Assembly: GCA_963971425.1 (NCBI GenBank)
Contig: OZ020523.1
Span: forward strand, 23,045,105 to 23,109,104
Source: Bryoerythrophyllum caledonicum
Taxonomy: Eukaryota > Streptophyta > Bryopsida > Pottiales > Pottiaceae
Direction: 5' to 3'
Length of the DNA stretch: 64,000 bases
A program made the translations under genes and the position numbers. Below are positions 12,602 through 60,069 of the stretch, piece by piece (position 1 is the stretch's first letter; every line of letters starts with the position of its first letter). The notes under the pieces were generated by a model, which saw only the letters and a list, made by a program, of their open reading frames with translations, was not told where the DNA came from and searched no databases.

Positions 12602-12853
12602 TTCTAATGCTTAATAAAATGAACTTCAAATTTCTTCATAAGATTAAAGATTCAGATTGAATCACTATAATTTCCATATTACTTATGAATTTCAATTCTA
12701 TTTTAGCAGGATCGAAATTGTTTCCAATGAAGTTGTAGACCGGATACTTTTCACCAGCCTCAATCTCCATGTAGGATTGTTGATATATATTCATTTTCTT
12801 TTGGTATAAATTATAAGCAATTTTGCTTTTAACATTAGAAACTGAAATTCATC

Positions 12854-25785: not shown

Positions 25786-26788
25786 AACGTGTATGTCCTC
25801 CATTAGCATCAATCACCGCTTGTAACCTTGAGGGCATAGAATGACATAGTTGAAGGAGCTTTGTACCACTAACCGAATTCCATTCTTTTTCAAGAACTAC
25901 CTTCATCACTTCTAAGTTTCTAGGGCATTCCTTGCCATGTTGCACAACATTTTTTAGCATCCTCCAGACATTCTCGATTGGATTGAGATCGGGAGAGTTT
26001 GCAGGCCAATTGAGCTTTTCGAGTTGGTGGGTTTGTCTCCATTCTTCACATGTTTTGCTATGATGAACAGGTGCACCATCTTCCATTAGCACTCCTTCTG
26101 GAAGTCTACTCAAGAAATGAATCAATTCGCCATCGTAGACCACTTCAACAAAATCTTTAGCAGAACGTTGAGTTTTTGGCATAAAGACAAGTTGTGACTT
26201 TTGTCCTCCAGCAAATGCACCCCAAATCATCAAAGATGTCCGTCCACTTTTAAAAGTAGGAACTATACAACTTGATGAATAACGCTCATATGCACTTCTC
26301 CAAACATGAATTTGCCGAGAACTTTTTCCAATCTCAAAAGTAGATTCATCTGTCCAAACAATACGCTCCCACTCTTTTGGACTCCATCCATGGTACTTCT
26401 GAGCAAAAGCTAACTGTTGAGACATGTGATGGGATGTCAAGAAAGGTTTTTTGACTACAATTCGACTAAAAATACCACTTTTATGTAATACCCTTTGAAT
26501 AGTACATCTACACACTTGAGTACGGCACATATTAGTAATCTCTGAGACCGAGGAACGACGATGAGTTTTTGCATAACGCACAATATTATTCACATCTCTC
26601 TCACTAAGTTTTTTAGCGTGACTTCCACCGCAAGGTTTGCGCTTATAAGTTCCATCTTCTTTAAACGTTTTTACTAACCTCTGAACTGTTCTAACAAAAA
26701 CTCCAGTAATGGCTGCAATTTGAACTCCTATATTTCCTCCCTCACTCAAACCTATAATGCGAGCACGGATTTCATCTGAAATTGCCAT
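25781..26788 (-). CDS. Tc1-like transposase, DD34E, intact frame (335 aa)
   Basis: The length matches the usual 340 or so residues of Tc1 transposases. Residues 1-100 hold paired helix-turn-helix DNA-binding motifs (around 20-40 and 80-101), followed by the RNase H-fold catalytic domain: Asp147 in WTDESTFEIG, Asp237 in MEDGAPVHHS and Glu272 in SPDLNPIENVW, with 34 residues between the last two. WGAFAGGQKS is the conserved beta-strand region. The enzyme would bind the element's ends and cut and paste it at TA. The TAG stop lies at the inner end of the left inverted repeat. Start ATG at 26788 is the first in frame and aligns with the paralogue. It is the only undamaged transposase in the window. 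Confidence 0.93.
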   Translation of the reverse strand: MAISDEIRARIIGLSEGGNIGVQIAAITGVFVRTVQRLVKTFKEDGTYKRKPCGGSHAKKLSERDVNNIVRYAKTHRRSSVSEITNMCRTQVCRCTIQRVLHKSGIFSRIVVKKPFLTSHHMSQQLAFAQKYHGWSPKEWERIVWTDESTFEIGKSSRQIHVWRSAYERYSSSCIVPTFKSGRTSLMIWGAFAGGQKSQLVFMPKTQRSAKDFVEVVYDGELIHFLSRLPEGVLMEDGAPVHHSKTCEEWRQTHQLEKLNWPANSPDLNPIENVWRMLKNVVQHGKECPRNLEVMKVVLEKEWNSVSGTKLLQLCHSMPSRLQAVIDANGGHTRW

Positions 26789-27480
26789 TATAGACTATTT
26801 TTTATGATGTTGATACAATACTATATGCTCTTCAATAAGTAATCAATATAACACTCAACCTATGGCAATTGGATTATATAATTCAGTAAACACAAAGGAC
26901 TCAGCTTATGGCATGTGCACTAAATAAATCAATCAACAACATAACACTCACATTGGCATGTGCACTAAATAAATCAATCAACAACATAACACTCACATTG
27001 GCATGTGCATTAGGTGATAACCATGGCATGTGCATTAGATGATAACCATGGCATGTGCATCAATTGAGTGAACCAAAAAATACTCTTGGACATACTCATG
27101 CCACATGTGACTCGTCAACACTCAGTAAACTAGTCAACAACACTCAAAAAAATATATATATATATCCACTCAATAAATCAGCCCATATGTGATATGCCCA
27201 CTCAATGGATCAGCCCATATGTGATTTGTCTACTCAATCAGTCAACAACACTCAGCCCATATCTAATATGTCCACTCAATATCATCTCAACATTCACTCT
27301 CAATACCATCTCAACATTCACTCTATTACAAATCACATGACAAAATACACACAACATTTCCTTTACATAGTGCTCAACAAATATTTGGAGGAGAAAACTC
27401 GTCATACGTGCATAATGCACACCAAACCTTATGACAAGTGGATTCTTCTACACAAAACAACTCTGCAATTCTACATGTAG
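26789..27480. repeat. short tandem repeats upstream of the transposase
   Basis: Two copies of a 45-bp unit (GCATGTGCACTAAATAAATC...) at about 26910-27000, then GCATGTGCATTAGATGATAA units to 27060, a short AT-run at 27148-27165, and YCCATATGTGATATG units. The region is presumably the promoter of the transposase on the - strand. Confidence 0.6.
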
Positions 27481-33392: not shown

Positions 33393-36300
33393 ATGCGTCC
33401 CCTCCAGATCTGCTCCTTGCTTAGTTTTGCTGTAATCGGCTGGGTTATCGTACACGTCACTGTGACCAGGAATGGCATGAAGCGTTGGCTACGCCGGGAC
33501 AATCCGGCCCAAGAGACCAAACCTGATTTGGAATGTCCTTCCGAGAGGAACATAAGCGATGAGGAACATGTTGGTGTAGGATCAAATGATGTTGGTCCAT
33601 CTGATCAATGCAGGTATGTGATGACAATCAAAGATCTTCTGCTGAAAGAGATGGGTTTGTTGATTGGAGGGAAGGCTGTTCTTTGTAATACTCATGTGTT
33701 TGTATGAACTAGTTTGGGCCAATGACACGCATTAGTAATGAGGATGTGTTTAAATTTGTGGCATACCTAGGAAGCCAAGCGTGGAGGCAAGCGTGGAGGC
33801 ATGTGTGGAGGCAAGTATGGAGCCCAGCGTGGAGCCAAAGCATAGGATATTTCTGAGCCATAGCGGGGCCCAAAAGAACTTCACATGGCAACTATGTGAA
33901 GACTTGGAAAGAGTACAACACTATCCATTCTTTGATCGACGCGATGATAGCTTGCCAAAGGGTGAAGAGTTCCCACCCCTCATTTTTAAGGCTGCATGAC
34001 AATGCCGTATTGCAGTGTTGGTGATATCTGATGAGTTCTTCACCCATTCTAAGTGGCCTATGATAGAATTGAATGCATTTGTGAAGGCACAAGGATCCAA
34101 TAACCAAGGCTTGAAGATCCTACCATTGTTTCTTGGAATTACCATGGAACAATTTCATGATAAGAAGCGACAAGCACGGTGGTTCAAGAAATGGAAGGAG
34201 TTTGCTTGCACTGATGAGAGAATTGATGTGGAGGCATGGAAGGGTACTTTGTCAAAGATCCCAGGTGGATTAAATGCAATGGAGTATAATGGGGTTATTG
34301 AAGGGGAAGTGGTGGAAGTCGTTTGCAAGCTCTTATGCCCTGATGTGAAGTATGATGTGTCCCATGTGCAATCATTGGAACAATTGTGTGAGGTATGGAT
34401 AAGTCATTGTTTTCTATCCAAGCATGTGATACAATTGACTCTCATGTCCAGGTGCAATGAACTAGGATTAGGACATGTATTACAATGTATAGTTTAGCAA
34501 TAACTTGGTTTTTGAGCAATTTGTAAATGATACATGTCAAGGTCTCTAAATTGCTCTTGTGTTGATTTAGTGACGCTCAATTGTGAAGGTGTTTTTCAAT
34601 GGTTGAAATAAAATCTCATTGGCTTAGGAAATTGGATGAAATTTTGACATGCGATAATTGACTTTAAAGAGCCTTTAACACTTTCACCTACAAAGGTGGA
34701 ATGAAGTGGGTGGTTTGATTTCATCTTGTTAAATGGGAAACTCTTCCATGAAGTTTTGAGGTCCTAATTGTAATCCTCAAGAATCTTTGGCCACGTAGGT
34801 GCTTTGATAACTAATTGACGTGTTTTGATTGTCTAAGGGTTTAACATAGCTCACGGTGTTCTTCCTCTTGGCAGCCAATATTGAAGAAGATGAATACGGT
34901 TAAAGTATCTTCTCGGTTTGAAGTCAAAGTAGTTGGGTTGTATGGAATGGGTGGTGTTGGAAAGACCACCATCTCAAGGGCCATATGCAATGAAATGTTG
35001 GAAGATTTTAATGGAAGGGTTTGCCATGTGGAATTGGGAGGCAATGATCAAGTGGAATTGTAGAAGAGAGTCCTTCGAGAAGTGACGTATGCTAATGCAT
35101 CAATCTTGGAGATTGATCCTCACAAGGTGAGGCTTTGGGATGTTGATGGTACCAAAAGTTTTGATATTGATTATCCATTGTGTGTTGTGAGTAGATTTGG
35201 AAAGGTTAATTGATAGTAATTTTAGTGATATCACTTTCCCACCTTATTTATGAATTTCTAGTCCATTGTAGAAATGTTGAAGTTTCTTTTAGATGAGCTG
35301 TTTTCATGATACACTTGTATGATGTACGTTTTTGATTGTATGGTAAATTTAGTTTCATGTATGGTAAAATTTGGCTTCTAATATGTCCAAATCATGTTTG
35401 ACAGCTTGATGATTTATTGAAACAGCGCATGCATCGGCAAGAAGTGTTTCTTGTATTGGATAATGTATGGGATGATCAAGTTGAAGAAGCATTGAAGTAT
35501 CTCAAGATTGGCCACCATGCTAAAAGTATGGTGTTGGTGACATCGCGATCTATTAGAGTTTTGAATCGATTGGGCATTGAGGAATGCAATTGCATGGAGA
35601 TGTCAAATCTGGAGTATGAAGGAGCAAGGAATATACTCCTTCATTATAGTGGAAACTCTTGGGAATCCATTGGAGATGAAAGCAAATGGGAGATTGTTGA
35701 GAGGTGTGTAAAGAAATGTTACTTTTCAACGGGGGAGATATCATCATGGGATTTGGATGGAGTGAGGAGATTTCATCCGTTGGCACTGAAGGCCTTGGAG
35801 GCCCAATTAGTAACTACTGAAATCAAAGATTGGGATGAAGTGTTGAAGGTGTTGGATAAGTTCAACATGTGGAAAGACAAAGTGCACCTTGTGTTCTCAA
35901 TTCTTGGCTTGGGATATGATGCTCTACAAAAGGATCTGCAAGAGATATTCTTGGACCTTGCACTTTTTTGGAAGTCTAAGTTGATTGGGAATGCAAGGCC
36001 TGATTACGAGAGAATCGTCTTGGAGTGGGAATGGTTGTGCACATTGCATTCATTGTCTGAAGAAGATATGATTCTAAATGTAAGGCTTCTCTCATATTCC
36101 TTTTTGTATAATTTGATTTTGTAGAGGTAATGTGGTATGTTTTGAAAGTCACTCAAACTTGAAGTAGCATATGAAGCGAGTGAATGTTGATGATTGGCAT
36201 TATGGAGTTTCACATCCATGCACAATGATATAATGGGGCCTTGTTGTTGGTGTTGTTCTTTTAGGTGAAGGCTCTTGAACGAAAGGGGCTTTTGGAGAAA

Positions 36301-38169: not shown

Positions 38170-40901
38170 TTTGAAAGCAGTCTTGGAGAAGAAATTGTAC
38201 ACTTGGGTAGAAGATATTCTGAATTTCTTAACGATTATGAGTACGATAGTGAAGAAAGTAATCCTGAAGACATTTTGGATGGATGAGATTTGAATTTTGG
38301 CTTTTTTTTTGAAGATTTGTAGATGATACCACACCTAGTTGTCACTACTTGGATAGTGGCTTTTGGAGGTAGTCACATGGGTTAACAAAGTACTAGGGTA
38401 GAGTCACTAGGAATTCCAGTGAGAAAAGCATCAGACAACATGAACACAGTTTGATGGATGGAACGTTTCATCTCAAGTTATTGGGAGCGCAACATTGTGA
38501 ATTATGTAGGAAGAATGTAAACCAATTTTGCAAATGCGCTAGATATTCAAGAACATGAGAGTTCGAATTATGTTCACAATTTGCAGCTCACGTTATGTCG
38601 TAATTTATGATGATTCATAATCATGCCTCATTACAAGACTAAATATCACATATCATCACTTGTGTAGTTGTGCCCTATTTGGATTCTACTCAGATGATGT
38701 TCGGCTTATATTCTAGTGATGTCCCTTTAAGTAATCAAGTGATACTATCGCAAATATCACTTATGAAAGTCCTACCCGGAGGGCTTTTCCAGCAAAGAAC
38801 CGTGTTGAAGGAGCTGGAATGGCACACCGCTGAGAACGAAGAGACTCTCTACAAGTCTGCTCAGCTTCAACAGCATCTAGGCTTGGGAAATCAACTCGTG
38901 TTCAGCTTCTAGTTCTAGCAAGTCAATATATCAAGGTCTGTTTTCATGTTTTACCCTCCCCTACTATACATCCGAATGAAACAATGGTTTATTTGTGATA
39001 AATTATCACAGATCATAGCGTGTTTGTAAGTTTCTTTGCAAAATCATTGATGACACCAAAATGTGAAATCTTAATGTCTCCAATTCCTTCATATTGAATA
39101 GGGTACTGAATAGATTTAGTATCAAGAAAATCAAGTACTATTTATCAATGAAATCTATGTAATAATACGTAATTGAAACCGAGTGGATGCAACTCTAAAA
39201 GATTTGAAATGTTCACTAAGATGACACATTCTTATTAATTTCTTTCCATAACGTGCAATGGTGCTCAAAATGGTGTAGCGTTGAACTGCCATCAATAAAG
39301 TCGTCTATTTTAGTGTATCACTAAAATTGCACCAAAGTCAAGTACTTCACATAGATACCCACTCTTGCATTGTTTAGATTATAAGGCCAACATCGACAAC
39401 AGCTAAAGTAGTAGGAAACTGATAACACAATGCGAGCAACGTAGACCTTGGGCATCTTCCCAACGAAATTTTGTTTTCCAAAGTTTCAAACACAAAACTT
39501 TGAGATTTCTCTCCTCTTCTACACTTCCTACTTCAACAAAGAACAATGATCTTTATCTTGACTATTTGGATCAAGATTTTATTAAACAAAACAAAATTGA
39601 GTTTACAAGAAAATACAAGGTACTTGAATTGAGTTCCTTCGGTTCGAAAATTGTTTTTAGTGTGCTAGAAGAAGCCTTTGATACATCCAAAAATGGTGGA
39701 CTAGAACCTGTCGTTTTTTCATTTTGCACTAGAAGGAACCTAGGGTGCGTTTTTCATTCAAAAGTGTCGCTCTTCACTCACTAAACGTCGCTCTTCGTTC
39801 ACTGGAAATCGGAAAAGCGTTTAATTTATTTTGTCCTTTGTGACCTAACTGACTCCCACGTTCACAAAATCCTCAAAATAGTGAATGAAAAACGACAGGG
39901 TTTGTTGTAGTGCTGTCGAGTGAGCAAGCCCCTAGGCATTGCTTAGGAATTTTTCAAAACGTTGCTAAACACCTTGTTTTCTTGTAGTGAATGTGCATTT
40001 TGTCCAAGAATACTTCGATTTTGATGAAGACAACACACATTCAGGTCAGAAGATGGAAGAAACGAGCAAGGAGATGGAAATGTGACAATGACACTATTTG
40101 ATCTGTTAATTCCAAGACATCAACTTTGCTTTCTTTACCTCACAATCAAGTGAAACATTCGTGATTTTCACGACTACAGTTGATCTCACAATCAAATATG
40201 AACATCCTTCGACATGGAACTTCTAACGTTGTTGTTGGACTTTGAGTTCATGAGTGTCATCGCTTGGATGAAATTTATTGGATGATATATGTCGAGGATG
40301 TGTTGGGATTTGTGGCATGTGTAGGGAACCAATAAATTTCAATGTTGAGATGGTTTATTAGATGATTTAAATCTGAAATTTATTAGATGATTTCTGTTAG
40401 ATATGAATATTATGAGGTGTTGAGTGATTGATGTTTCATATTGTTGAGGATGTGCTGGGATTTGTGGCATGTGTAGGGAACCAAGATGCGAGCATGTTTT
40501 CTTATATATGGTTTAAACACTAATTGGCTCTTTGACAATCTCGAGTGATACATGTCAAGGTTTTTAGGTTGTCTCTTCTATCAATTCAAAGGATTTTGTG
40601 ATGCTCAATTGTGGAAGTGTCTTATTGATGCTAAGTAGCTATCTCATTTGTCTTAGGATATTGGATGTGTTTAACATGTAATGCTTGTCATGAATGAGCC
40701 TTTACCATTTATAGAACGGTTGGAATATAATTGAATTATTGATTTCACTTTGTCGAATGAAAGATTTTGCTTGTGGAGTTTTAAGGCCTTAATTGTGGAC
40801 CGTGAGATTCTCTTGTTGTGTATGTGCTTTGACAATGAGTTCTTGCAATTCTTTTTGTTTCGGTTTTGGTTTCACCATGTAGTGTTTTTCTATATCGGCA
40901 G
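38170..40901. other. non-coding region between TNL A and TNL C
   Basis: 38170-38286 continues the TNL A frame after a TAG with acidic residues. 38400-38670 is the 3' flank shared with TNL B. 39480-39900 has a hairpin MITE. From about 40240 the sequence resembles the intron upstream of the TNL A P-loop exon (TGATACATGTCAAGG, TTTGTGATGCTCAATTGTGGAAG), so it belongs to TNL C, although its TIR exon is missing. Confidence 0.5.
39707..39899. mobile_element. short MITE with inverted ends CCTGTCGTTTTTTCATT
   Basis: CCTGTCGTTTTTTCATT at 39707 is inverted as AATGAAAAACGACAGG at 39884-39899. The interior has repeated GTCGCTCTTC. Target duplication is unclear. Confidence 0.55.
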
Positions 40902-41525
40902 CCAATAAAGAAGAAGCTAGAGGAGGTTGAAGTCTTTTCTTGGTTCAAAGTGAAAGTAGTTGGGTTACATGGAACGGGTAGTGTTGGAAAGACCACCATC
41001 TCAAGGGCCATGTGCAATGAAATGTTTGGGAATTATAGTGGTAAGTATGCCATGTGGAAATGGGAGGCAAGGATCAAGTGGAGTTACAGAGGAGAATCCT
41101 TGGACAATTGACACATGCTAATGCATTGATCTTGGAGAATGATTTTAAGAAGGTAAGATTCTAGGATATTGATGGAAACAAAACATGGTGTGGTGGGCAT
41201 ATGTTCTTATTTTCATACTCTAATATGTGTTGTAAGTGATAGTGAAGTCTGTTTTATTATTGAAATGGAAACTTCTACTTGGATGGCTTGTTTGATGGGA
41301 ACTTTTGGCTTGTTATTTTTGTGTGATTTGCTACTTGAATGTGTTCAGCATTTTAGGTGCGTGTTTGATAGTTTGACATAATGTGTGTTGATAACATTTG
41401 ACAGCTTGATTACTTATTGAAGCAATGCATGCATTAGCAAGAAGTGTTTCTTGTGTTGGATAATGTATGGGATGATGATGTTGAGGAAGCATTGAAGTAC
41501 TTCAATGCTAGCCACCATGCAAGGG
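40902..41525 (+). pseudogene. TNL pseudogene C, left part (P-loop exon and start of next exon)
   Basis: 40902-41152 matches exon 3 of TNL A but is one base shorter (frameshift), and its P-loop reads GTGSVGKTT, with Ser replacing a Gly. 41405-41525 matches the start of exon 4 (QEVFLVLDNVWDD, then VEEALKYF). A TAG at 41435-41437 replaces a CGG seen in TNL A. The reading breaks in the middle of the RNBS-B region where the 12.8-kb element is inserted, and continues at 54380. Confidence 0.85.
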
Positions 41526-41529
41526 TATG
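41526..41529. other. target-site duplication TATG (left)
   Basis: TATG here and at 54376-54379. TNL A has a single GTATGG at the equivalent place, so the four bases were duplicated on insertion. Confidence 0.75.
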
Positions 41530-41560
41530 AACATGCAATTAAGCAATTATGCACTTAGCC
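41530..41560 (+). repeat. left 31-bp terminal inverted repeat of the 12.8-kb element
   Basis: Differs from the inverted right end (54345-54375) at two positions. It overlaps a hairpin-forming GCACTTAGCCAAGTGC that continues to 41566. Confidence 0.9.
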
Positions 41561-42125
41561 AAGTGCACTGGTTGCTGGTAGAAAGCCGCAAGTTATTTGC
41601 TCATAACTTTTTTTTAAATCAAAATTTGGCAAAAGTTTAGTAAGTTTTTTGTCAAAATTTTTTGGTGTTTGTCGTGTTAAACCTTGGCATCTTCATGTTC
41701 ATATCAGTAATATATTTTTTACATTTGCTACCTTTTTAAAAAATATATGATTTCTAATCTAGTTTACAAATCTTGCTACAAAATTATAATCATGTGCCCA
41801 AAGAGATTATAAATTTGTTATGAGTTATTATAGGATTTTTAGAGTAGTGCACTATAAATACAATGTGTAAGAGATACAAAAATATATATGCAGTTTCCTA
41901 AGACAGTGTAAAGTACCTCAGTGTATTTTATAATGCAAAACATACATAATCAAGCAATTCCACACTATTGCTGAGGAATTCTAAAATCAAACATATCATA
42001 TGGACCACCCAATATATAAATATATACCACCCATCGAACGATAGACACATCTCAAACTGCATTATACTAACGTATTTGCCACCTAAATTGCGTGCATGCT
42101 CTACTATAGTATATAGCTCCAGGGC
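41561..42125. other. left subterminal region of the 12.8-kb element
   Basis: AT-rich with no gene. Presumably holds transposase binding sites and the 3' end of the - strand gene. Confidence 0.4.
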
Positions 42126-45100
42126 TCAGAGCTCATCTTCTGGCGGAACTACTCCCTCCACGTGTCCAATGGCGCTACCTATCATAGCGGACAGTTCATG
42201 ATCCTGCACTGGACGATCTCCCACATCTTCGATGCCAATGGACGCACACTCAACATATCGGTAATTGCCAGGAACACCCTCCCGCGTATGTCTTACCCTA
42301 TCATCATTGTAGAAAGAGCCATCCTCTGGATTGAAGGACATCTCTCGTTCTAACGAGAAGGTCCCTTGAAATGCAATGATGTCCTCAGATACGCTAGATC
42401 TTGGAACGGAAGGCAAACCTGGTCCGGTATCACTCTGAGCACCTCCGAACGTCTCTTGTGTCTCCGATACAGGCTCTGATTGAGAAGGTTGTGGAATCCT
42501 CCTCTGCACAAAAAAAATTCCAATGAATCCAATTTTTCTTCCTCCATCTCCAGCCTAGGACCATCAAATGTACGCCCCCCTCATGCCCCTACCCCAAAAC
42601 CAACATCCACTACACCGGTATCTTGCATCCTCTCTGTAGGTGTTGGAGACGTCTCCCTTGAAGTATCTTCCACCGCCGGCTGCGTTGATGGAATCCTCTC
42701 TCTTGGAGGAGACTGATTCACCCCATCTTCATCAGCATCTGAACTACTGCGAGATGAGAAATCTTCAGTGGTACCTGAACGTGACAATCTCTCATATAAA
42801 CCACCTCCATCCTCATTGTCGTCTTCATTCCTCACTCCACTAACCGCCTCTTCAGTCTCAGGTACAATGTTGCAACTAGTACTTCTTCCACCAGTCCTGA
42901 CCAACAGTTGTCATTGGAAATTGTCAGACAACTCATTGTACAGAAATGAAACTCTGTCTGTACATTTGTCAATGATGAAAACCTTAGATCCCTGGAAATC
43001 TCCTTCGAGGATCGTGGGAATGGCCATAGATATGTTACACGCCACTAAACTCCAACCACGGGGCAAGTATGAGCCCACTAGTCTTGTCAACTCTAATCGA
43101 GATCTCTCAAGTGAATCAACTTCAGAGGGTTGGCGTGCCTCACTCCAGTGATCCAAGAAAACAAGTGGAAGTGGAATGTTTCCAGAAACATAGTTCGGGC
43201 TAGGAGATGTACCCACAGGGTACTGCATACAAATCACAACATCGCCAATCGGTTTAACTACTTGCTCCAGATGCCCATTCTCTATAAAATCGAGAGCATA
43301 GGGATTAACCGAGTTCGGATCAAATGCCCAACATCCACATCGCATGGTACATCCCTCTGGAAGCTTCACCTTCGTGAAAAACTCTTCGTTGGCATACACG
43401 GCCGCTGGTAACAAGAAGATGACGTTCCATCGTTCAATATTTGCCATCCATAATATCAATTGTACAAAAGCTGTGGATAACTGGGCGTCTCCCCAATGAC
43501 CATCTCCATGCCTCCCACCGCCACGTCGACAATCAATCACCCACGAACATGATTTCCCCAACTCTATGTAGTCGGTGCGGAATAATCCTCTTCTACACCG
43601 AACTGGAAGAAGATTCTCTGTGTCGCTCTGGCCTAGCCTCTTGATTTCCATCTGCCATTCCCAATTAGTAGTAGCATGTCCTCCCACATCCACGGACAGT
43701 CCAATGTATCCACGCCCCCCTGCCGCAATGTCACCATAATGAAACCTGATGGAAGGGGGGATGAGGTAGCCTATGTCTTCGAATTTAGACACCTTCCCCC
43801 GCACAGGAGCAGTCCAAGTTTTTTTCGTGGCAGCATTCAAAAGCTTCTCAAAAGTATCAAGTTGTGCGTTACTCCTTGGAAAATACTTCCCTACACGGAT
43901 ACGAAAGAACTCCTCCATGGAATCAGGTGTATTTTCCTTGTTCTCCACCATCAACCAACGGATGGAGTTCATCACAGCTTCTCGTCTCTGATATCGGTCA
44001 ACCACACCGGCAATCGTACGAGGATGTGGATTCTTGTCTTTTACACTGTCGAAATAATATACTTGACGTGGTCTTACTCCATCCTCCCCCACCGGCTTCG
44101 CTGCAGCAGATTTTGCCAACCGAAGATAATATGGATTCGGAACCCTACCTAATGGCCTCAACCAATTCTCGGTCATCTCCTTCCTGGTTGGTCGTACATC
44201 CACATTTGGATCCAGCTCTTTCTTCCTCGCCATGTCCTTCCACTTGTCCTCTTCCTCCTTGCTGTAAAAGAGAATGCCGGCTTCGAAGCAATCATTGCTC
44301 GGATTCCACGCATGATTGATCAGATCCTCCATGTTTTGGGCCAACCTCTTCACCGTGACAACTCCATCCCCCTTGGGCAATTTATGCACTGCACTTGCCG
44401 CACTCACCAAAGCAACAGCCCTCCGCGCATCGTCCGCACATATTGTGCTATCAGGCCTCCCGTATAGATCCCAAATCTGACAGAGCTTCCTCAAATCCTC
44501 CTCCATGGTAGAATATGATTGTCTCTGAAACTCCGCCACATTGATCCGTGCAGACTACTCAATGTAGAACTAGCGATCATCATGCACCACAAAACAGGCC
44601 TCCTGCCGCTCGAACGTGTCTAGGTACACATTTAAAGGCATAGTACCATCTCTCCATTGCTGTTGTGCAAACTTACAAGCTGCTACTATGTGTTGCCCAT
44701 CCACCGGTTCCCAAATGATATGATCTTGAAGCCAAGAATACTGGGATCCCATAGCACCCTATGCAGAAGCACTCCCGTGTACAATGAATATGCGCTCAAA
44801 CTCTCATGCGGTTCCTATCAACGGAAATGGCAGCTCCTCCTTCTCAACGACACCATCATCGGTGGTAGTATGCACGATGTATCTGATCGGTCGAAGTACC
44901 AATCTACTTACCCGAGTCGCGGATTCAGGGTCTCTCAAGCGATTAAATACTTCTCTGACCCTCTTCTGTGATAAAACCCGGTGGTTCGTTTCCGGATTCT
45001 CCACAGAGACAATGCGGTCTATGTGTGCCTTAAATACAAAATTCCCCCACACTGATCCTTTTGCAATCTCCTCCGTTATAGGCACTGGTGCTTTTAAATA

Positions 45101-46072
45101 CATTGAAGTTGGAACATCCCGTGGTATCTCCACATTGTCTTCAAAATCCTTTGGTATACTGTCTGGAAGGTTGTGAAAATCTTCTTCCTCCTGCGCCATG
45201 GCTGACAAATCAGCTAAATCTCCCGGTATAGATGTAGGGGCCCTACGATGACCATCAGACGTCCTGAGCCCCGATCTAAGAACCCTGCCACCCGATCTTG
45301 CACTTCTTCCATTCAACCTCCTCCCGCTTGGATCCAAACTTGATGGGCCTTTTCTTGAACCAGAAGCTACATCACTGTCAACACGCCGTGGCCTCTTCGT
45401 AGGACGTCTACTTGTTAATAGAGGATTCGGTAATGTTTGTACCTCAGAAGTTGTGGTGGGATGTTGGCCTCCACTTCCCCTCCCCCCCTCCAGTGGTCGC
45501 CAATCCAGTTGCAATGGCTCAGCAAGAATTCGATAAACTTTTGTTTCTTCTGGTTCCGCTGGTGGAGCTTGAGTTCTCGCACGTGATGGGTCTCTCTCTT
45601 GAAATGCCTCATATCTAATATGTTCCTCCATAATCTTCTTAGCCTTCAGCACCATCTCCGGTAATAACGCTAAACAGGCTAAAACGTTGTTGTGTCTAGC
45701 AGTACGTACCGCAAGAGAGATCTTTAACCAAAACGTTTGCAATGATTTGAGGAATTTCACCTGACTTGGATTTTGAAGAAGATTCAAAGGGACAGGTGCA
45801 AGAAGCAACTTCTTTGAAAGTGAAGTCTTCACCTCCGATTGACCAGGACCTACTGTGCAAGTAACATATACCATATCATCACGTCGAAGAGTGATTGCCT
45901 GAATTTTGCCAAAACTCTTCCCCAATGCCGATGTACGCTTCCCCAACTCAAAGGGATAATCCGTCACCCACAAGAAGGCGTTCGACTCATCCACTTCCGC
46001 GATCCACCAGCCGTAGCTCTCCCAAATTCTGTCAATATTTGGTGGTGCCAGAACGCAACACTCAAAAAACCT
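42126..46072 (-). pseudogene. large unrecognised gene of the 12.8-kb element, five in-frame stops
   Basis: One - strand frame is coding-like from a splice acceptor at about 46073 (ATACAG before GTTTTTTGAG) down to about 42590. It is followed by a likely intron (acceptor TTTTGTGCAG near 42510) and a last exon to 42126, about 1,280 codons in all. Stops TGA 44804, TAG 44759, TAG 44570, TAG 44555 and TGA 42911 interrupt it, with similar protein character on both sides. The first third has a Trp-rich domain (WESYGWWIAEVDE) and an NLS-like RRPTKRPRR. The middle has helical and Arg/Lys-rich sequence, then GYIGLSVDVGGHATTNWEWQ and CSWVIDCRRGGGRHGDGHWG. The end is acidic and Ser/Pro-rich. I do not recognise the family. 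Its divergent placement relative to the transposase suggests an accessory or cargo protein. Confidence 0.65.
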
Positions 46073-46114
46073 GTATATCATTACAAAACGATAGTCACTA
46101 TTAGTATGGAATAA

Positions 46115-47550
46115 GAATTTTTGAACCTCCACTCATTGCACAACTTTTTTGAACATCCTACACCCCTTGTCTACCTCTAAAAACTTTTCCACCACAGAAG
46201 ATCTAAATCCAATATCATCGTGTTAAGCATGTTGTTAGTTCTTTGGTGAAATAGCATATTAATCCAAGTCAATTATTTTCACACATTTTCAAGGAGAGTA
46301 CCAAAAAACTTCTACTTTTCCACATAAAACTTTAAGAACTTCGTATGATTCACTTTTGATTTTGCCTACAACATTATGCGATGTAAAACTTCTCATTGAC
46401 CATTTGGATTCTCATTTCAAACGATATCAAGTTCAAAAAAAAACATAACGTGAATTGAGAATTTTTGAACCTCCACTCATTGCAATTTTTTTTTTAATAT
46501 GCTACACCCCTTGTCTACCTCTAAAAACTTTTAAACTACACAAGATCTAAATCCAATACCATCATGTTAAGCATGTTCTTGGTTCTTTGGTGAAATAGCA
46601 TATTAATCCAAGTCAATTATTTTCACACATTGTCACACATTTTCGAGGAGAGTACCAAAAAACTTCTACCTTTCCACATATAACTTTGAGAACTTCGTAT
46701 GATTCACTTTTGATTTTGCCTAAAACATTATGCGATGTAAAACTTCTCATTGACCATTTGGATTCTCATTTCAAACGATATCAAGTTCAAAAAAAAACAT
46801 AACGTGAATTGAGAATTTTTGAACCTCCACTCATTGCAATTTTTTTTTTAATATGCTACACCCCTTGTCTACCTCTAAAAACTTTTAAACAACACAAGAT
46901 CTACATCCAATACCATCGTGTTAAGCATGTTGTTAGTTCTTTGGTGAAATAGCATATTAATCCAAGTCAATAATTTTCAGTCATTGTCACTTATTTTCGA
47001 GGAGAGTACCAAAAAACTTCTACCTTTCCACATAAAACTTTGAGATCTTTGTATGATTCACTTTTGATTTTTCCTACGGCATTATGTGATGTAAACCTTT
47101 GTATTGACCATTTGGATTCTCATTTCAATCGATATCAAGTTAAAAAAAAAACATAACGTGAATTGAGAATTTTTGAACCCCCACTCATTGCACAATTTTT
47201 TTGAATATGCTACACTCCTTTTCTAACTCTAAAAAATGGTATATAGCAAATTAACATCATCTTTAACATTATGGTAATTAATTGAGACCTTTTATAGTGC
47301 AAAAATGTGACACCAATTGAAATCAAAGTCTGCTGATCCAGAAAACGCAGTGAAGAAAATCACGCTTTTCACTACTTCAAACATTATAATCTTTCAATCC
47401 GTGCGGTGAAAATTTATGAAATTTTGTGAGCATATTATTTAATAGATAAGGATTAAGATCCTACGGTTAAAACAACCAAAAAACTATATTTTGTCTTCCT
47501 TGCTAAATGCACTAAAACAAGCATTTTTAAAGATTTTTGGTTGAGATGTT
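46115..47550. repeat. ~350-bp tandem repeat grown from a TTAA-family element
   Basis: The segment starting GAATTTTTGAACCTCCACTC recurs at 46115, 46459, 46813 and 47167, so the unit is 344-354 bp. The remainder (about 47200-47540) matches the right part of TTAA-family copies A and B (CACTATAATCTTTCAATCCG-type sequence). The element thus expanded internally. It lies just upstream of the - strand gene. Confidence 0.8.
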
Positions 47551-48360
47551 CTCAACATCATTTATGGACCAAGGTACATTGGGTATCAATAGCGAGGATA
47601 TCACCACCAGGGTATGAGTTCATAGGTACCAATTCCAAGTTATCAACCAATGTATCTAAGTCGGGTATCAATTAGGATTTGATATTAGGGTTTTGGAAAT
47701 GTGGGTATCAATGGAGGATATCAATCCTTTGCAAAGTTGGGTAGTCCTACGAGGGGGTGTGCGCGTGCACACCCCTGGCAGTAGTTTGAGGGAGGCTGTG
47801 AGTGTTAGAGAGGGTTTGGAGGAGGGTTTGAGAGAAGCGCTTGTGAGGGTGAGGAGAGTAGAGTTGTGAGGGAGAGGAATGGAGGGGAGTTGTGAGGGAG
47901 AGAAGTAGTGGGCGACTAGGGTTTGAGAGAGAGAAGGAGAGAAGTTTGTGAGGTGTGAGAAATGCAAGCAATAGTTTCGGAGGTGTGAGAGATGCACATG
48001 TGAGAGTGATTGGGAGGTGTGAGAGATGGCGCCCGCGCCGCGCCTGGGCAGCCTGCGCTTGCGCCGCGCCCCGAGGACTATGGATTTGAATCGCAGCTCT
48101 CGTTGCGGCGGGGCTTTTTTGGATGGATGCAGGAGCAACAACAGTTCGGGGTGTGCGTGCGCACACCTCCAGTCCATGGTTACTCCATCAGGTGTCGCGC
48201 GAACTCCGTGGGACCGGCAGCTACGGTTTGGCTGCGGCGGCTAGGATTTAGTTGCGGCGGCTAGGGTTTAGTTGTGGCGGCTAGGTTTTGGTGCGGCGGC
48301 TAGGGTTTGGGTGCCTGGGTGTGGCGGCTAGGGTTTCAGGTTGTGCGGTGATGTGCCGTA
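47551..48360. repeat. GC-rich repetitive region in the middle of the 12.8-kb element
   Basis: Repeats of GGGTATCAAT (47580-47730), near-palindromes GGGGTGTGCGCGTGCACACC at about 47756 and its relative at about 48149 (perhaps inverted ends of a 415-bp insert), GAGGTGTGAGAGATG repeats (47950-48030), and a 20-bp minisatellite GGCGGCTAGGRTTTRGTTGY, about five copies (48233-48330), resembling telomere-like TAGGGTTT. Open frames here are by-products of the repeats. Confidence 0.6.
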
Positions 48361-49442
48361 CTGAGGATTTAGTGCCATATTATTAACTTCACATTGACTT
48401 CAATTTGTGTGGTGTTGGTGTAATTATTTCAGTTGATCGAAGGTTTAACTTACTAGTTCTTGACTGCTATATGTGTATTCATTCAACGTTGCAATTTTGT
48501 ACATACTGAAGTTGGTGTCCTCATTTGTGTATTCAGAAATTGGTATTCACCTAACTCTATCGTAACTCTGACTGAACTTCAATCATCATGTACCTATCCT
48601 TGAGTTCCCTCTATGCAGAATTGAAACAAAGTTAGAAGCTTACCAAATTCGCTATAATATCCTCAATGTGCAAATTTCCTTCAATCTACACAATACACAA
48701 AGTTGACAGAAATTAGTGAATGGAGTAAAAATGCAGATGACTTAAGGTTTCGAATGTAAGAGAGCTCACCTTAGAAACTGGGAAGAGAAATGACCTCCAG
48801 ATTTGCATAGAAACCTTATATCCATGTTGGAACCTTGTGCCTCAAGTTTAAGAGTCAAAGTTTGACTTTTGAACTTTGGACCTTTTGCTTTGTTCCTCCT
48901 TATGTTTAAACTTTTTACATATTATATTAAAATTTTGGGGTATATGTAATACGATGATACTTAGGAGGTTTTATCGCATAGTTTACCGTATAAATTTTAT
49001 GCATGTGGTGCAGGTAAAGTGAGAAGGGTTAAAAAACATGTTCAACAACGACGGAATGGTGATTAAATGTTGAACGCCATCAAGCATCAGTGTGTATACC
49101 GCTAACACCTGCAACGTATCTTGAGGTAAACATTTATTTTAATACAAGTTTAAGATTGATTGTTGATTGATCTTCTATACTATGTTGTTTGTAGAATAAC
49201 CTTTATGTGGATGTACAAACTTTTTTTTATTAGCGATTGTAATAAGTTCCAATGGTGTCGGTAATAGCAAGTAGACAACATGGTTCATTTTCTTCCCTAA
49301 GTTCAGTGGATTCCCTTCGTTTCAGTTCACTTGGATTCAAAAAATCGCATCACACATGATCTAGATTCGTTATCATCATGTCAGAAATGATATAAGTTCC
49401 ATTTACACCAATGTTTAGGGATGCAGAAGAGGTGTAGCATAT
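48361..49442. other. intergenic sequence of the 12.8-kb element
   Basis: No supported frame. It may contain leader exons or the promoter of the + strand transposase gene. Confidence 0.3.
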
Positions 49443-49446
49443 TTAA

Positions 49447-50389
49447 CCCCTAAAGGATCAAGTGTCCAAAATGGGCTTTTTGAAAGTTCGGTCAAGTTCC
49501 TATGGTGTCAATTTCCACCATTTCTCTTTGAAATTTTTTCTATAGAAAGGCATTACAAAGACTTTAGTGGGAAAACGATTTTTACTTAAATTGGACATTT
49601 GATCAAAACAATTTAGGGTTTTGAATTTCAAATGGAGAGAGCAGGCAAGTCGAGCACGTCTAAAAACTTTTGCTAGGACACTCTGTTGAATGTGAGATTT
49701 TCAGTACTTGCAAGTAATATAATTTCCCTTGATGTTGTCAAAATACGTTCTTGTTTTTGGCGAAAAATAGCATACCAACCCAAGTCAAACATTTCACACA
49801 TTGTCAGTCGGTGTTGGGCAAGGTACCAAAAAAACTTCTTGTTTTCCAATTAAAACCTAGATATTTTTTTATATTTCACTTTTCATTTTTTCCACAACAT
49901 TACGTGGTGTAAACCTTCTTATTGACGATTTGGATTACCAATCTAAAACATATTAAGTTCACAAAAAATTACACTGTGAATTAACAACTTCCAAACTTCC
50001 ACTCCTTGCATAGCTGTTTTGAATATGCTACACCCATTCTCTACCTCTGAAAATTGGTGTACAAGGAACTAACATCATGCTTAACAAGATGGTTATGGAT
50101 TTAGACCTTCTGTACTGCAAAATATTGACACCAAGTGAAGTCAAAGTCTACTGATCCACTGCATGCAGGGAACAAAATGAACCATTTGCTTGACTTCAAA
50201 CACTATAATTTTTCAATCCGTGCGGTCAAAGTTTATGAAATTTTTTGAGTATGTTATTGAATAAGTCTTAATTGAGATCCTACGGTCAAAAGTAGAGATA
50301 AAAGTTTTTGTTTCCTTTTTTGTTCATTGCGCTGGAATCCAACAATTTTGAAGTGTTTTTGGTGTAAAACTGTCATTGTATCTTCAGGG
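49447..50389. mobile_element. TTAA-flanked element, copy B (943 bp), nested in the 12.8-kb element
   Basis: TTAA at 49443-49446 and 50390-50393. It begins CCCCTAAAGGATCAAG and ends TTCAGGG, and is homologous throughout to copy A. It sits about 200 bp upstream of the transposase coding region. Confidence 0.8.
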
Positions 50390-50605
50390 TTAAAGACTCC
50401 GTGCAAGGAGTTCATGCTCTACAAATTCTTAATTTTTTTATTTCAAAGTTGTTTTATCAAAAGGTCCAATATCATCATCATATTTTGAACTGAAAATATG
50501 TGTTTAGAAACATATCTTTTATCAGATGAATGGTGCTTTAAAGGTTAACAATTACTACATGTATTTTGACTAATGTGCAGCCATAATGTTCCTATTTTTT
50601 GAATA

Positions 50606-53600
50606 GTGATAATAGAGAGCCGCACGATTCAGACTCCTTCGATACAGCCACACATCCAAAGGGATAAAATGCTTTCCAATAGCTCTGTGGGGGCCCAATT
50701 AGTACGAGCAGCACGTGCAAGGCAAATTCAACAAAGATATGTTGATATCATGATATCTGAATCAGAAACGGTAGTAGAATTGCTTTCTAAGAGAGGAGAT
50801 GTGGTGGGCTTAGCAACCAGGGAGCATGCATTGAAAAGTGGCATGGAGTTGAATGGGCCAAAGTTGTTCCCATTCGAGGTGGCGGTGCGTATCACTAGGG
50901 TAGATGATGCATTGCATTGGACCGGAGAGATTGTAGGAAAACGCCTTGGCATGTGTGTGGGCTTGATCATTCGTTGGCATCGGTCTTTGCTACATGTAGT
51001 GGCTGTAGAACCCGATATCACAGGTGTCCATGGTGACATTGGATCACAGATAGCGCCTACACAAGTGATGGCCCCAGAATTTGATGTTCCTAAGTTCATC
51101 AACACACCAGGATCCACCCAGAGGTCTCGACGCAGTAGTCATGCTTCAAACGCCATAGATGAAAATTCGCCGTTTTCCCAATCTACTCCCTCAAATATCC
51201 AAGATTTGCCCCATGTAGATGGATTTGCTTATGTTAGACCAGCAGGTCGTCCATATTCTATGCAAAATAGGAGAAGGAGAGATTCAAGGGAGCCATCATT
51301 GACACAAGCTGCACCATCTAAGGTATCGCTTAGAAGCGTGCAAATTGCAATGGCACAAAGAGGATGCAAACGGAATTGTTTGAGGGACGTTCCAGCAAGG
51401 TATCTATTGGACATGCGATATAATGCATGGGGTAGTGAATTTTCAGTTCAAAGTACGTGGATGAGACAGATGCTGGTTTCTTTTTACAAAAGAACGGAAG
51501 GAATTCGTCGAGACAAGTTTGTAACAAAGTTAGATGGGAAAGAAGTTTGCAATGCTTGCTACGCTCTTGGGGTTGGATATTCACAGAGGCGCTTTAAACA
51601 ATTGAAGAAGGACTGTCTAATATATGGAAGAGTGACATCGATTCACGGCAATACCCATTCAAATCCGATAAGAGAGAGTACTAGAATGTCTGCAGTAGAG
51701 GCTTGCTTTAAATCGTTTGTCGATGAAGCTGGTTGTCCTCAACCTCATCGTTGTATTCGCCGTAAGAGTGACAACGAAGTGGTGCCTCTCATTCTCCTTC
51801 CTATGAATACAGCCAAATTTGATGTATTCAATTACGTGAATGAGGAGGTCAAGAGAATTTGTAATGGAGAAACCATTTCTATGAGTTCGTTCCGGAGGAT
51901 GTGAGGCATCAAGTATCCCCACGTTCAGGTACCTCCATTCTCAAGATTCTCAAAGTGTTATCATTATTGGGAGTATAAATGTGCCATGGAGGGAACCACC
52001 AATGCGGATGCAACGATAAAGATAAAGGAGTTGTTTATGTTGCATCTGCGCAACTAGACGGAAGAACGTAGGCATTATTGGATATTCAAGAGGTCGTATT
52101 ATATTAGCCCTGAGTTGTACATGTGCATCACAGTGGATGGCATGGACCAAAACACGACCATGGTACCGAGGATGCGTCAGACTGTGAAGAACATTGAACA
52201 CCGGTTTGTGAAGACCCATTTGTGTGGTGCTCTTGTACATAGGATTGATTTATATTGCGATGTGTGGTTTGGGGCTCACCACAAATACAATAGCAATCAA
52301 GTTGTGAGTACATTGTTGTATGTGATCGGAGATGTGCTGCGGAGGAGGGGCTTTTTGCCACCAACACTGCGAATTCAGGCCGACAACTGCACGCGTGAGA
52401 ACAAAAACATTTATATGTTTGCTCTATGTACTACATTGGTGGGATCGGGGTTTTTTCAGGAGGTGGAACTATCTTTCCTAATAGTGGGCTATACCCACGA
52501 AGATATTGATCAACGCTTCAGTTGTATATCAAATACGTTGAAGAGGTCGGACGTGGACTCGTTGAAGGAAATGATTAGTCTTATAGAACGAGGAACATCT
52601 CCTACGGAGGCATTTGTTAGTGCCCGGATGCTAGAGAATGTATGGGATTGGAAATTGTTCATAACTCCTCATTTACTGACAGGTCAAAATTCATTGGTGG
52701 GCATAACATTTCCGTACCACATGCGATTCTTTATGGACAATCGAGAAGGGACTTGTGAGGTTCGAGTACAACACAAGCATTATTGCAAGGATCCATGGGG
52801 ACCGGAGGCAGGGACGAAAACTTCGAGGTCGTTGCCAAATAGGGATGAACGACCATCGTTTGCGGAAGTATTTGCAGCGGACGAACGGGAGTTGAAGGCG
52901 TTGGATGACTTCATTGCATATAAACAAAGGTGCATTCAAAGGTTGCAGCATGAGGACAAGAATCGTGAGGCAAAAGTAGAGGCTGAAAGATTGAAACTCA
53001 ATTTAGCTCAATTTCCACACAAAGACCGTAGCAATGAGCATCGTACCTCACCGTTTTGGCCTTCAGAGTTCTCCAACACCGAACCTACAAGGAGCGCATC
53101 TTTGGATGTAATGGATGGTGCAAGTGAAAAAAATTGCGAGATAAATGTCGTAGAGCAGGTAGTGGCCATGCTTCCAAATGCCGAGGCTCGAGGATACTTT
53201 GGTCCTCGTAGAGGAAGACCCTCTAATCAAGCAGTGCGTAGACACAACGAACAGAGCGCAACTGTGATGAGGAATGCGCCGAAGAAGGAGCAATGTATGA
53301 AGGTAATCATGACCCATTTCCACCATTTAATCCACAATCTGATATCCGTTGTGGACAGTTTGTAGCCTTGAGTGTTGATCGAGCAGAGATAGAAGGCGGT
53401 GTACCATTCTATGTGGGGAAAGTGATTGAGGAAGGAAAAAACCGATGGAGACTTAAGATTAAGGTTTGTTGGTATTGGCCCATCATCCAATGGGGGGTTG
53501 CTGATGGACATGGGTCTTCTACACAACGGTATGCAAATTGCATGGACTTAATCTGGGAGCCATCTGGGGAGAGCCATAGTTGGGTAGAGAAAGATGCATG

Positions 53601-53802
53601 CATTTTTTCATGGGTAGACTCACCGGAAAGAACCATGTCCGGAGCCAACGGGTGGAGAAAGCGCAATGTATTTGGAGTGCAGGTTGAAAGCAGGATTCGC
53701 ATTCTTCAATCGGCAAAGGCTCACATCCTACAATATATTGCAATGCAAACCGAAGCTATCGATGACGACCGTTTGCAAGCAGCCCTACATTCTATGGAGT
53801 AG
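50606..53802 (+). pseudogene. DUF7869-like transposase of the 12.8-kb element, broken
   Basis: A likely splice acceptor (TGTGCAG at 50574-50580) precedes the frame. The N-terminal third is an unrecognised domain. Then come YNAWGSEFSVQSTWMRQM and VCNACYALGVGYSQRRFKQL, the usual pre-domain of this family. The catalytic-type core has ITVDGMDQNTTMVP (about 52130), LRIQADNCTRENKNIYMFAL (about 52370) and GYTHEDIDQRFSCIS (about 52490), which match the DUF7869 signatures I know from other eukaryotes and look like an RNase H-fold triad. TGA 51902 and TAG 52055 break the frame with homologous sequence on both sides. A one-base shift near 53290 moves it to the last 165 codons, which contain GQFVALSVDR and FYVGKVIEEG, a possible BAH/chromo-like module. 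It ends TAG 53800. Confidence 0.75.
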
Positions 53803-54344
53803 ATAGTGTGCCTTTTTGAGAGTATACTAGTTGTATATGGTAATTGCTATATAGTGTATGTGTAAGAGTAGTATATTCTAAGGGTGATGTAAGACATTAT
53901 GTCGTTAATCCTTTAGAGTGAAGTTGTGTTTACTATTGGAGCTAAGTCCAATTGTTGAAGCATCTATATTTAGTTTCCACCATTGTATGCATTATGTACT
54001 ACGTAGAATATCTTTTAATCAACTGCCAACCCTTGCATAAAGTATGTTTTTTTGTAATTACGCATGTTTATATACTACAATCCTTCAAATCTATCTTTGA
54101 AATATTGTGAAACTATATTAAATATATATTTATCTAGTATTAACGAGGGGCCACGACAAATTAGTTGAAAATGCCAAAAAATCGCTTCCAATATGAACAA
54201 CCATGATTGTACGTAATATTGTTGCAGAAGCTCAATTTTTTTTCCTTTGGAAATTTTTTTTTTTCATTGATTTTCTGTTTTTTTATTCAATTTTGCCACT
54301 TTTGTTCGCAATGGCCGCCGTTGTACCCAAGTGCACTTTTAAAT
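53803..54344. other. right subterminal region of the 12.8-kb element
   Basis: AT-rich. From about 54175 it resembles window bases 1-120, showing that both copies share this terminus. Confidence 0.5.
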
Positions 54345-54375
54345 GGCCAAGTGCATAATTGCTTAATTGCGTGTT
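54345..54375 (-). repeat. right 31-bp terminal inverted repeat of the 12.8-kb element
   Basis: Inverse of 41530-41560 with two differences, and the same as 157-187. Followed by TATG (54376-54379), the second copy of the target duplication. Confidence 0.9.
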
Positions 54376-54379
54376 TATG

Positions 54380-54948
54380 GTGTTAGTGACATCGCGGTCT
54401 ATTGGAGTTTTGAAACGATTGGGCATTGAAGTATGCAGTTGCATGGAGATGTCAAATTTGGAAGAAGAAGGTGCAATGAATGTACTCTTTCATTATAGTG
54501 GAATCTTTCATGAGTTTATTGTAGATGAGAGTGATTGGAAGATCGTTTGGAGGTGTGTAATGAAATGTTGCTTTTCAAGGAGAGAGATATCAACATTGCA
54601 TAAAGATCAAGAGTGAAAATATCATCCTTTGACGTTGAAGGTCTTGGGAGGTCAATTAGTTACTACCAAGATCAAAGATTGGGATGAAGCCTTCAAGGCA
54701 TTGGATAAGTTCAACATGTGGAAAGACAAAACACACCCTGTGTTCTCAATCCTTTGCCTAGAGTTTGATGCTCTGGAGCCAAAGTTGCAAGAGATATTGT
54801 TGGACCTTGCCTTCTTTGGAGACGTGAATGGACTCGTCATCCGAGGGATTTTTATTCTTCTACTTCACAATATGAGTATCAAGATATGTTGGAGTGAGAA
54901 TGGTTGTGCAGATTTCATTCAGTCTCCAAAGGTGAAATGATTGCAAAT
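54380..54948 (+). pseudogene. TNL pseudogene C, right part
   Basis: Homology to TNL A exon 4 resumes exactly at VLVTSRSIGVLKRLGIE, where the left part stopped at 41525. It continues through KIKDWDEAFKALDKFNMWKD. A TGA at 54614 replaces the TGG seen in TNL B. The splice donor at its end is AT instead of GT (AAT/ATAAG). Downstream LRR exons are not found. Confidence 0.85.
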
Positions 54949-58545: not shown

Positions 58546-59759
58546 ATAAGTAATTTTCTGTATTTCCACATATCACAAAATGTTCAATAAAATTTTCAAT
58601 GAAAGAAATGAGATGGGTTTTACATAATTTATATTGTTCTACATTTGGGTTCAATATTTTTTTGCAATACCTTTTTGTAAAATAGAATTACTTTCAATTT
58701 ACCAATTTCAAGGTAGGTTTTTTCTTTCAAGATTCCTTTCAACTTGAGATTTTTGAACGTGGCTGGTAAAAACTCTGTGCAAAATCAACTTGTGACACCC
58801 TATTTCACACTTGTTTATGCAACTAAATGCGAGGTTTTGTTTCTTTGGTAAATCTAGATGCACGTAATTTCATAAAAGATTCTCATTTAATATGTGAAGA
58901 AATTGATAGTAACATAATTTGACAGTCTCCAAGAGCTATTTCAAAGAGGCCGTGAAAAAAAAAAAATCCAATTTATTAAAACACGGGGTGAAAACACGGA
59001 GTAAAATTACCGCGACATTTTTGAGTTATTTGTAAAGGGAACCGGTCTTTTGTCCTCCTTTTTTCATGCAAAAGAGAATCTAACCTATATTTGAGTGTAG
59101 CCGCAAAGTAATCCAGTGAAAAAAATTCAAGGTTTGAGGGTTTTGAGGAGGTGTTATTTATGGCACAAGTGGCACAAATCTCCCCAAAAAGAACAAAAAC
59201 AATCATGAACGTCATGACACTCTCGCATGTATCCTACAATCCTAGAGTTGTGCATGATGTGAAGGGTCAGAGTTTGCTTAAAATAAAAGCCAAGCACAAA
59301 CTCGAGTTTGGGAATTCTAGGGCTCAAAAACTAGTCTATCCAGTGTTCTATTCAAGGTCTACAGTGAAACCCTACCAGTGGACTCGGCGACCCTGGCTTT
59401 TTCATTTTACAGGTTAGAAACTAAGGATTTGGGGTACTTTGCGGATAACTCTTTTGCACTTCTTCCGGCTGAAAATTTGAGGACGTGGGATGGGAATTTG
59501 AGGATGTGGGATGGGGATTCGGGGACGTGGAATGGGCTGTGGAATTAGGGTTTAGGAGGGGTTTTGGAAGGTTGGGGAAGGGCTTCGAGGTTTCTCTTTA
59601 TCGCAGCGACACCTGCGCCATAGCCGAGCGCGGTTCGGGAGGTTTTGCAGGGAAGTCAGTCGTCATGGTGTTCCGGCGCTTCGTGGAGATTGGGCGGGTG
59701 GCGCTCGTCAACTATGGGCCCGAGTACGGGAAGCTGGTGGTGATCGTGGACGTCATCGA
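58546..59759 (+). repeat. eL14 upstream region, the longer member of the segmental duplication
   Basis: Homologous to 188-967, with about 430 extra bases at 59020-59451. It includes the promoter and 5' UTR of eL14 by position. The shared GCACTTCTTCCGGCTGAAAA (59457) lies about 200 bases before the ATG and could be near the transcription start, since such polypyrimidine starts (CTTCTTCC) are typical of ribosomal protein genes; this is inference. Confidence 0.8.
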
Positions 59760-60069
59760 CCAGAACCGCGCGCTGGTGGACTCGCCCGACATGGTGCGGA
59801 CGCAGATCAACTTCAAGCGGCTGTCGCTGACGGACATCACCATCCCGGAGCTGCCGCGCGCGCCGCCCAAGAAGGTGCTGCGGAAGGCGTACGAGGACGC
59901 GCAGGTGGAGCAGAAGTGGGCGAGCAGCGCGTGGGGCAAGAAGCTGGCGGTGCGCACGCGGCGGGCGGCTCTGACGGACTTCGACCGGTTCAAGGTGATG
60001 GTGGCACGCGTGAAGCGCAGCTCCATCGTGCGCCGGGAGCTCGGCAAGCTCAGGCGGGAGAAGGCGTAG
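59665..60069 (+). CDS. RPL14: 60S ribosomal protein eL14
   Basis: An intron-free 134-codon frame starting [20 protein letters not shown], with [19 protein letters not shown] (the KOW-containing N-terminal domain) and [18 protein letters not shown]. The basic C-terminal helix follows ([25 protein letters not shown]). Length and order match plant eL14. It is a structural protein of the large cytosolic ribosomal subunit. The coding part is markedly GC-rich compared with its surroundings, as expected of a highly expressed gene here. A longer in-frame start at 59485 exists but is not conserved protein. This is the only clearly intact host gene in the window. Confidence 0.97.

Follow-up and report, generated by a model that had tools for sequence, protein, structure and literature searches.

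We found that a 64,000-nucleotide stretch of the moss Bryoerythrophyllum caledonicum (assembly GCA_963971425.1, contig OZ020523.1, positions 23,045,105 to 23,109,104 of the forward strand; the whole stretch is called the window hereafter) contains a DNA transposon with two large, divergently transcribed genes. Gene A, on the forward strand, encodes a transposase-like protein with a DUF7869 domain, and gene B, on the reverse strand, encodes a large second protein. We consider it probable that the insert belongs to an autonomous two-gene cut-and-paste DNA transposon of a land-plant host, most likely of the Sola-1 kind, with B as a diverged accessory gene. That such an element consists of both genes and is autonomous was well supported by the genome-wide results described below. 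DUF7869 (PF25273) is an unnamed Pfam domain whose entry gives no function. Here it is linked to mobile ends and their 4-bp duplications; the large second gene travelled with the DUF7869 gene while its lineages diverged to about 21-38% identity. Open copies of both genes make the role of B directly testable.

The element, its target site and its copies

The positions of all features are collected in Table 1. The 31-bp inverted ends of the window element matched at 29 of 31 positions and were flanked by TATG on both sides. The insertion splits a TIR-NB-ARC (TNL) immune-receptor gene, and a nearby paralogue, TNL A, aligned to both flanks without interruption. The homology of the paralogue to the left flank (35397-35530) stopped in AAAAGTATG at 35530. 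To the right flank it began at 35527, and since the two stretches overlap in TNL A, TATG is the duplicated target. A 3-bp duplication (GGT), suggested by the reading frame, was dropped, the TATG site being evident in the paralogue. The original prediction had placed the element ends to the base with a 4-bp duplication, and both claims stood on these inverted repeats, flanks and paralogue.

A 22-mer of the terminal inverted repeat was observed three times in the window, compared with 0.00 expected from window shuffles. Two of these were the element ends, and the third (161-182) lay in one end of a second family copy; this end was 95.6% identical over 45 bp to 54331-54375. The direct repeats between the two genes have a related copy at about 49747-50291, and they may serve the element as promoter or as binding sites. 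Both genes of the window copy were damaged.

Pfam matches to TIR, NB-ARC and leucine-rich repeat domains were spread across three frames of TNL A, and frame 54617-54937 alone, in the right part of the interrupted gene, showed no Pfam match. The P-loop exon of the interrupted gene had single-base gaps in its alignment to the paralogue, so this gene may carry lesions outside the insert; the insertion may or may not have inactivated it. Here an immune-receptor gene split by a transposon stands next to its uninterrupted paralogue.

The genome from which the window comes (437 Mb, 894 contigs) was searched for further copies. The 27-bp end gave 645 forward and 645 reverse exact counts, while the reversed control gave 0. 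End-pair geometry was taken from the first 100 ends listed, on two contigs, and there we found 27 inward-facing pairs of neighbouring ends within 30 kb, of 2.2-25 kb in length, including 10 sized 12.4-14.4 kb; 3 neighbours were outward-facing and 1 pair was in the same orientation. The shorter pairs are presumably non-autonomous. Eleven end pairs were read, that of the window among them. Ten had exact 4-bp duplications, namely TATG, TAAG, CATC, CAAG, CCTA, CTTA, ATTG, TATG, CATT and ACAT, and the eleventh pair, of 2.2 kb, had the inexact AGTC/AGTA.

One complete copy of 13,693 bp, its middle partly masked, had open frames for both genes, with 1,348 codons in B (stop to stop) and 1,077 in A. 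From the damage in the window the original prediction had expected active relatives elsewhere in the genome, and intact ones, with open copies of both genes, were found there. A diverged lineage (C1:3203712-3214709) measured 10,998 bp, with ends AACACCGGTTYCGTTAAAA, the duplication AATA and a broken B. The outermost AACAC (AACACCGGTT ends) was common to the window lineage and the diverged lineage, whose B is 22-31% identical. In a further pair (C1:62054685-62067046), which has the end of the window type, lies a B row open over 1,377 codons; judged from its length and score, this row would belong to another B lineage. Pairwise identity among 30 B loci reached 99.0%, with a median of 94.7%, and the window copy was at most 93.3% identical to any other of these loci; the window insert is an old, damaged copy.

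Genes A and B and their pairing

Gene A of the window matched DUF7869 with an E value of 1.4e-45 and 155.7 bits, covering nearly the full profile, as expected from the predicted DUF7869-like transposase on the forward strand. An open copy of the gene scored 172.8 bits, and both values exceeded the Pfam gathering cut-off of 26 bits. In the genome search, scores were obtained for 150 of 3,601 candidates. Every row listed was above the cut-off, giving at least 150 matches, many of them open frames of 1,044-1,087 codons; the intact gene has about 1,066-1,087 codons. The same domain gave 0 matches in 14 control genomes. Seven A proteins (36-59% identical to the first) have DGMDQ, HDSNQ, QADN-RENKN and GHTHEDIDQRFS in common, and a relative of 26% identity retains the DGMDQ aspartates, the aspartate of DN-RENKN and the last aspartate of GHTHxxID. 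In the window copy the first H of the GHTHEDID motif is replaced by Y. D512, D594 and D636 form the putative catalytic triad, and A would be a Sola-1-type DDD/E transposase with an RNase H-type fold.

The 26%-identical relative (L083) is an open 915-codon DUF7869 gene on contig CAKZGI010000425.1 (3.7 kb), filed as a Trichormus metagenome-assembled genome, and it was the only one of 33 stretches confirmed in prokaryote contigs. This contig is probably eukaryotic host or bystander DNA in the cyanobacterial sample. In viral contigs, short patterns found 28 stretches for A and 63 for B, and none was confirmed as a relative.

In the window, gene B runs from 46132 to about 42581 in a single frame interrupted by stops, with its last piece (42126-42554) in a different frame. 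A second large gene on the reverse strand, divergent to A, had been predicted and was found, but its predicted length of about 1,280 codons was too short for the intact gene of the complete copy. In the first genome search, 79 of 1,252 candidates were scored, giving at least 79 rows with 90-100% identity, many of them open over 1,340-1,371 codons; open copies overall had 1,340-1,377 codons. When a diverged B (31% identical to the window lineage over the matched stretch) served as query, 85 rows were obtained from 733 candidates. Six B lineages with 21-56% pairwise identity have 69 invariant columns, including E-P-x-D-G-Q-H-x3-A, S-x3-N, R-x4-T-x2-E and LW-x2-DCR-x-G, and DGQH is invariant in all six.

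Selection on B was estimated from 11 stop-free copies out of the 30 loci (55 pairs). The mean nonsynonymous (dN) and synonymous (dS) divergences were 0.023 and 0.086, with a dN/dS of 0.26. By residues, dN/dS was 0.13 (1-160), 0.72 (161-320), 0.14 (322-560), 0.05 (561-640), 0.23 (640-1010) and 0.50 (1060-1322); picking intact copies pulls these values somewhat down, with a smaller effect on how the regions differ from each other. B is co-inherited with the element and under purifying selection among its copies. Pfam scans showed no credible family match for B. An SRA1-like PDB match of one B piece (E 0.021) was gone when a longer protein or a profile was used.

When the 150 rows listed for A were set against the 79 for B, 33 A/B pairs lay within 15 kb, where chance placement predicts about 0.8, and all 33 were divergent. 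In the diverged-B search, 38 rows had an A among the matches listed at no more than 20 kb, in divergent orientation in 35 of the 38. Rows do not equal genes here, since a gene is in some cases represented by two pieces, and at least 3 rows are loci shared with the first pairing. Of the six B lineages, four have a divergent A listed at their locus, as does a B to which a fifth lineage (L068) is 95% identical. An inverted end was found within the retrieved DNA at 26 of 30 B loci, and the outer flank differed each time when compared by eye. A fixed host locus for B, which the original prediction had named as evidence against it, was not seen: B is multicopy, adjoins an inverted end at most loci read and lies inside the complete copy, and its inclusion in the element was upheld.

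These results bear on two other explanations. B might be cargo, a captured host gene and not a working part, and its lack of a credible Pfam family would fit such an origin. However, B is present in lineages only 21% identical, its divergent position is fixed, and its copies show purifying selection, which makes cargo very improbable. The insert might also be a composite of a DUF7869 element and an unrelated second element inserted beside it, as the damage and internal repeats of the window copy could suggest; yet the same two-gene arrangement recurs many times, the complete copy has A and B inside one end pair, and the B-side ends have differing flanks, so that we give a composite almost no credence.

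As a separate observation, some stretches of the diverged-B search (L071-L078) matched only about the first 166 residues, at 81-86%, and carried 0-4 stops; among the matches listed, no A lay within 20 kb of them. They may be deletion derivatives or else a family of solo domains.

Relation to Sola elements and the possible role of gene B

Elements of the Sola superfamily have a DDD transposase and 4-bp target site duplications, and the element described here has in common with them the 4-bp duplications and the occurrence in a moss. A Sola1 of Physcomitrella appears in a land-plant table of one report (PMC9033089). Sola2 elements have AT-rich 4-bp duplications according to another (PMC3627910), whereas CATC, CAAG and CCTA are among those read here. 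A parallel was found in Sola1-1_Ec32 of the brown alga Ectocarpus, a giant DNA transposon whose opposite-strand gene is described as ParB-like plus DNA methyltransferase (PMC12477816). Both elements have a large gene on the strand opposite the transposase. The same report gives Sola1-1_Ec32 a length of 21.5 kb and an accessory of 1,104 amino acids, and tabulates 2 intact Sola-1 copies in Ectocarpus; in contrast, the copies read here measure 11.0-13.7 kb, with B of about 1,350 codons, no methyltransferase motif found in B, many open copies and a land-plant host. The second gene had been taken as new, and this was right in part only, an opposite-strand gene in the same position being published for the algal element. 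In our search of the moss Sola literature, none of the titles and abstracts dealt with a two-gene element of this type, and the accessory arrangement, described from algae in the literature searched, would extend to a land plant. The comparison with Sola gains from this parallel.

The ends and duplication lengths of MuDR, CACTA and PIF/Harbinger elements differ from those found here. These plant transposons carry additional genes, as stated in one report (PMC9033089), and a transposase with a further gene is common to them and to our element; however, A has DUF7869 and none of their transposase families in Pfam, and B has no Pfam family.

If the element is a Sola-1-type transposon, A as a DUF7869 DDD/E enzyme would bind the AACAC ends, excise the element and insert it at a target cut with a 4-bp stagger. 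The divergently transcribed B would be a DNA-binding accessory, perhaps a diverged ParB-like protein, acting on the DNA of the element itself, such as its sub-terminal or inter-genic repeats. It might assist in assembling the transposition complex or in countering silencing. The methyltransferase part of the Ectocarpus-type accessory may have been lost here, may have diverged beyond recognition, or may never have been present.

The first B block resembles a ParB box by eye. Comparing the B core with 8 plasmid ParB sequences, hhalign gave a score of 20.2 (probability 1.8, E 0.027) and set DGQHIVAAC of B against the G-RR-AA box of ParB, while 30 column shuffles scored at most 18.4. That B contains a methyltransferase, an idea raised by eye and later by the Ectocarpus report, was not supported, as no catalytic motif was found and its profile score fell below the shuffles; a Pfam scan of B showed no methyltransferase match.

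Several observations weigh against the reading as a two-gene Sola-1-type element. In the pairing, for 46 of the 79 rows of B no A lay within 15 kb among the matches listed, which the limited number of matches listed for each gene would explain, and 3 of the 38 nearest pairs in the diverged-B search were not divergent, two of these rows being short pieces at one place and the third having a divergent A 26 kb off. The 10 kb upstream of three further A copies contained B in one case and none in two, one of the two being the copy with B at 26 kb, and the sixth B lineage (L082) had no listed A nearby. As to ParB, the unrelated pair of A and ParB scored 20.5, and A and the B core scored 25.5 (E 0.032); because these scores are as high, the B-ParB score is non-specific. 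Pfam ParB_N had no match in the whole genome at E<=10, and the motif [DNS]PP[YFW] was found in none of the six B lineages. The second B region scored 12.0 with three bacterial amino-methyltransferases (one partial), and shuffles reached 18.1. The ParB-likeness of B is weak and draws on the DGQH motif together with the parallel published for Ectocarpus, and the putative Sola-1 likeness was drawn from published descriptions of Sola elements.

The lack of a methyltransferase signal, of a ParB_N match and of a specific hhalign score would also fit another explanation, in which A is the transposase of an unnamed DUF7869 superfamily apart from Sola, B is unrelated to the algal ParB-methyltransferase and the layout is convergent. 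In line with this, our literature search found no paper naming DUF7869. On the other hand, the 4-bp duplications, the length above 10 kb, the large opposite-strand accessory and the ParB-like motif fit the descriptions of Sola-1 and Sola1-1_Ec32, and we regard a separate superfamily as unlikely. We also put forward, as a tentative possibility, that DUF7869 elements are a large and ancient land-plant group of two-gene transposons, in which B would be an obligatory, non-methylating DNA-binding partner, possibly ParB-derived, that clamps or spreads on the element to join its ends or to shield it from silencing.

Coordinates and other features of the window

Table 1 Features of the element, its target gene and its surroundings in the window.
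Feature	Position	Strand	Remarks
DNA transposon	41530-54375		12,846 bp; both ends base-exact
Left (B-side) terminal inverted repeat	41530-41560	+	31 bp; leads into GCACTT-AGCC-AAGTGC palindrome
Right (A-side) terminal inverted repeat	54345-54375	-	31 bp
TATG target site duplication, left copy	41526-41529
TATG target site duplication, right copy	54376-54379
Gene A, DUF7869 transposase-like	50603-53802	+	two in-frame stops, frameshift near end
DUF7869 domain (PF25273)	52202-52750	+	residues 49-231 of frame 52058
Candidate catalytic motifs in DUF7869 domain			DGMDQ, QADN-RENKN, GHTHEDID
Gene B	42129-46132	-	broken by stops and frameshift; DGQH region and LWxxDCRxG region
Direct repeats	46107-47282		spacing about 344-354 bp; between divergent genes A and B
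A-side end of second family copy	143-187		body left of window
Left part of interrupted TNL gene	40839-41529	+	P-loop exon; NB-ARC under curated cut-off
Right part of interrupted TNL gene	54376-54940	+	75% to 35527-36130
Uninterrupted paralogue in TNL A	35397-36130	+	empty target site
Copia-type long terminal repeat (LTR) retrotransposon polyprotein	7823-12610	-	two frames
Tc1/IS630-type transposase	25781-26794		open 337-codon frame
Tc1/IS630-type transposase-like, shorter frame	19970-20518
Ribosomal protein L14e gene	59473-60066		downstream of TNL genes

Other mobile elements were also present in the window. The Copia-type frame at 9437-12610 had gag, integrase and RVT_2 matches. The longer Tc1/IS630-type frame had a DDE_3 match, and the shorter one looked alike by eye.

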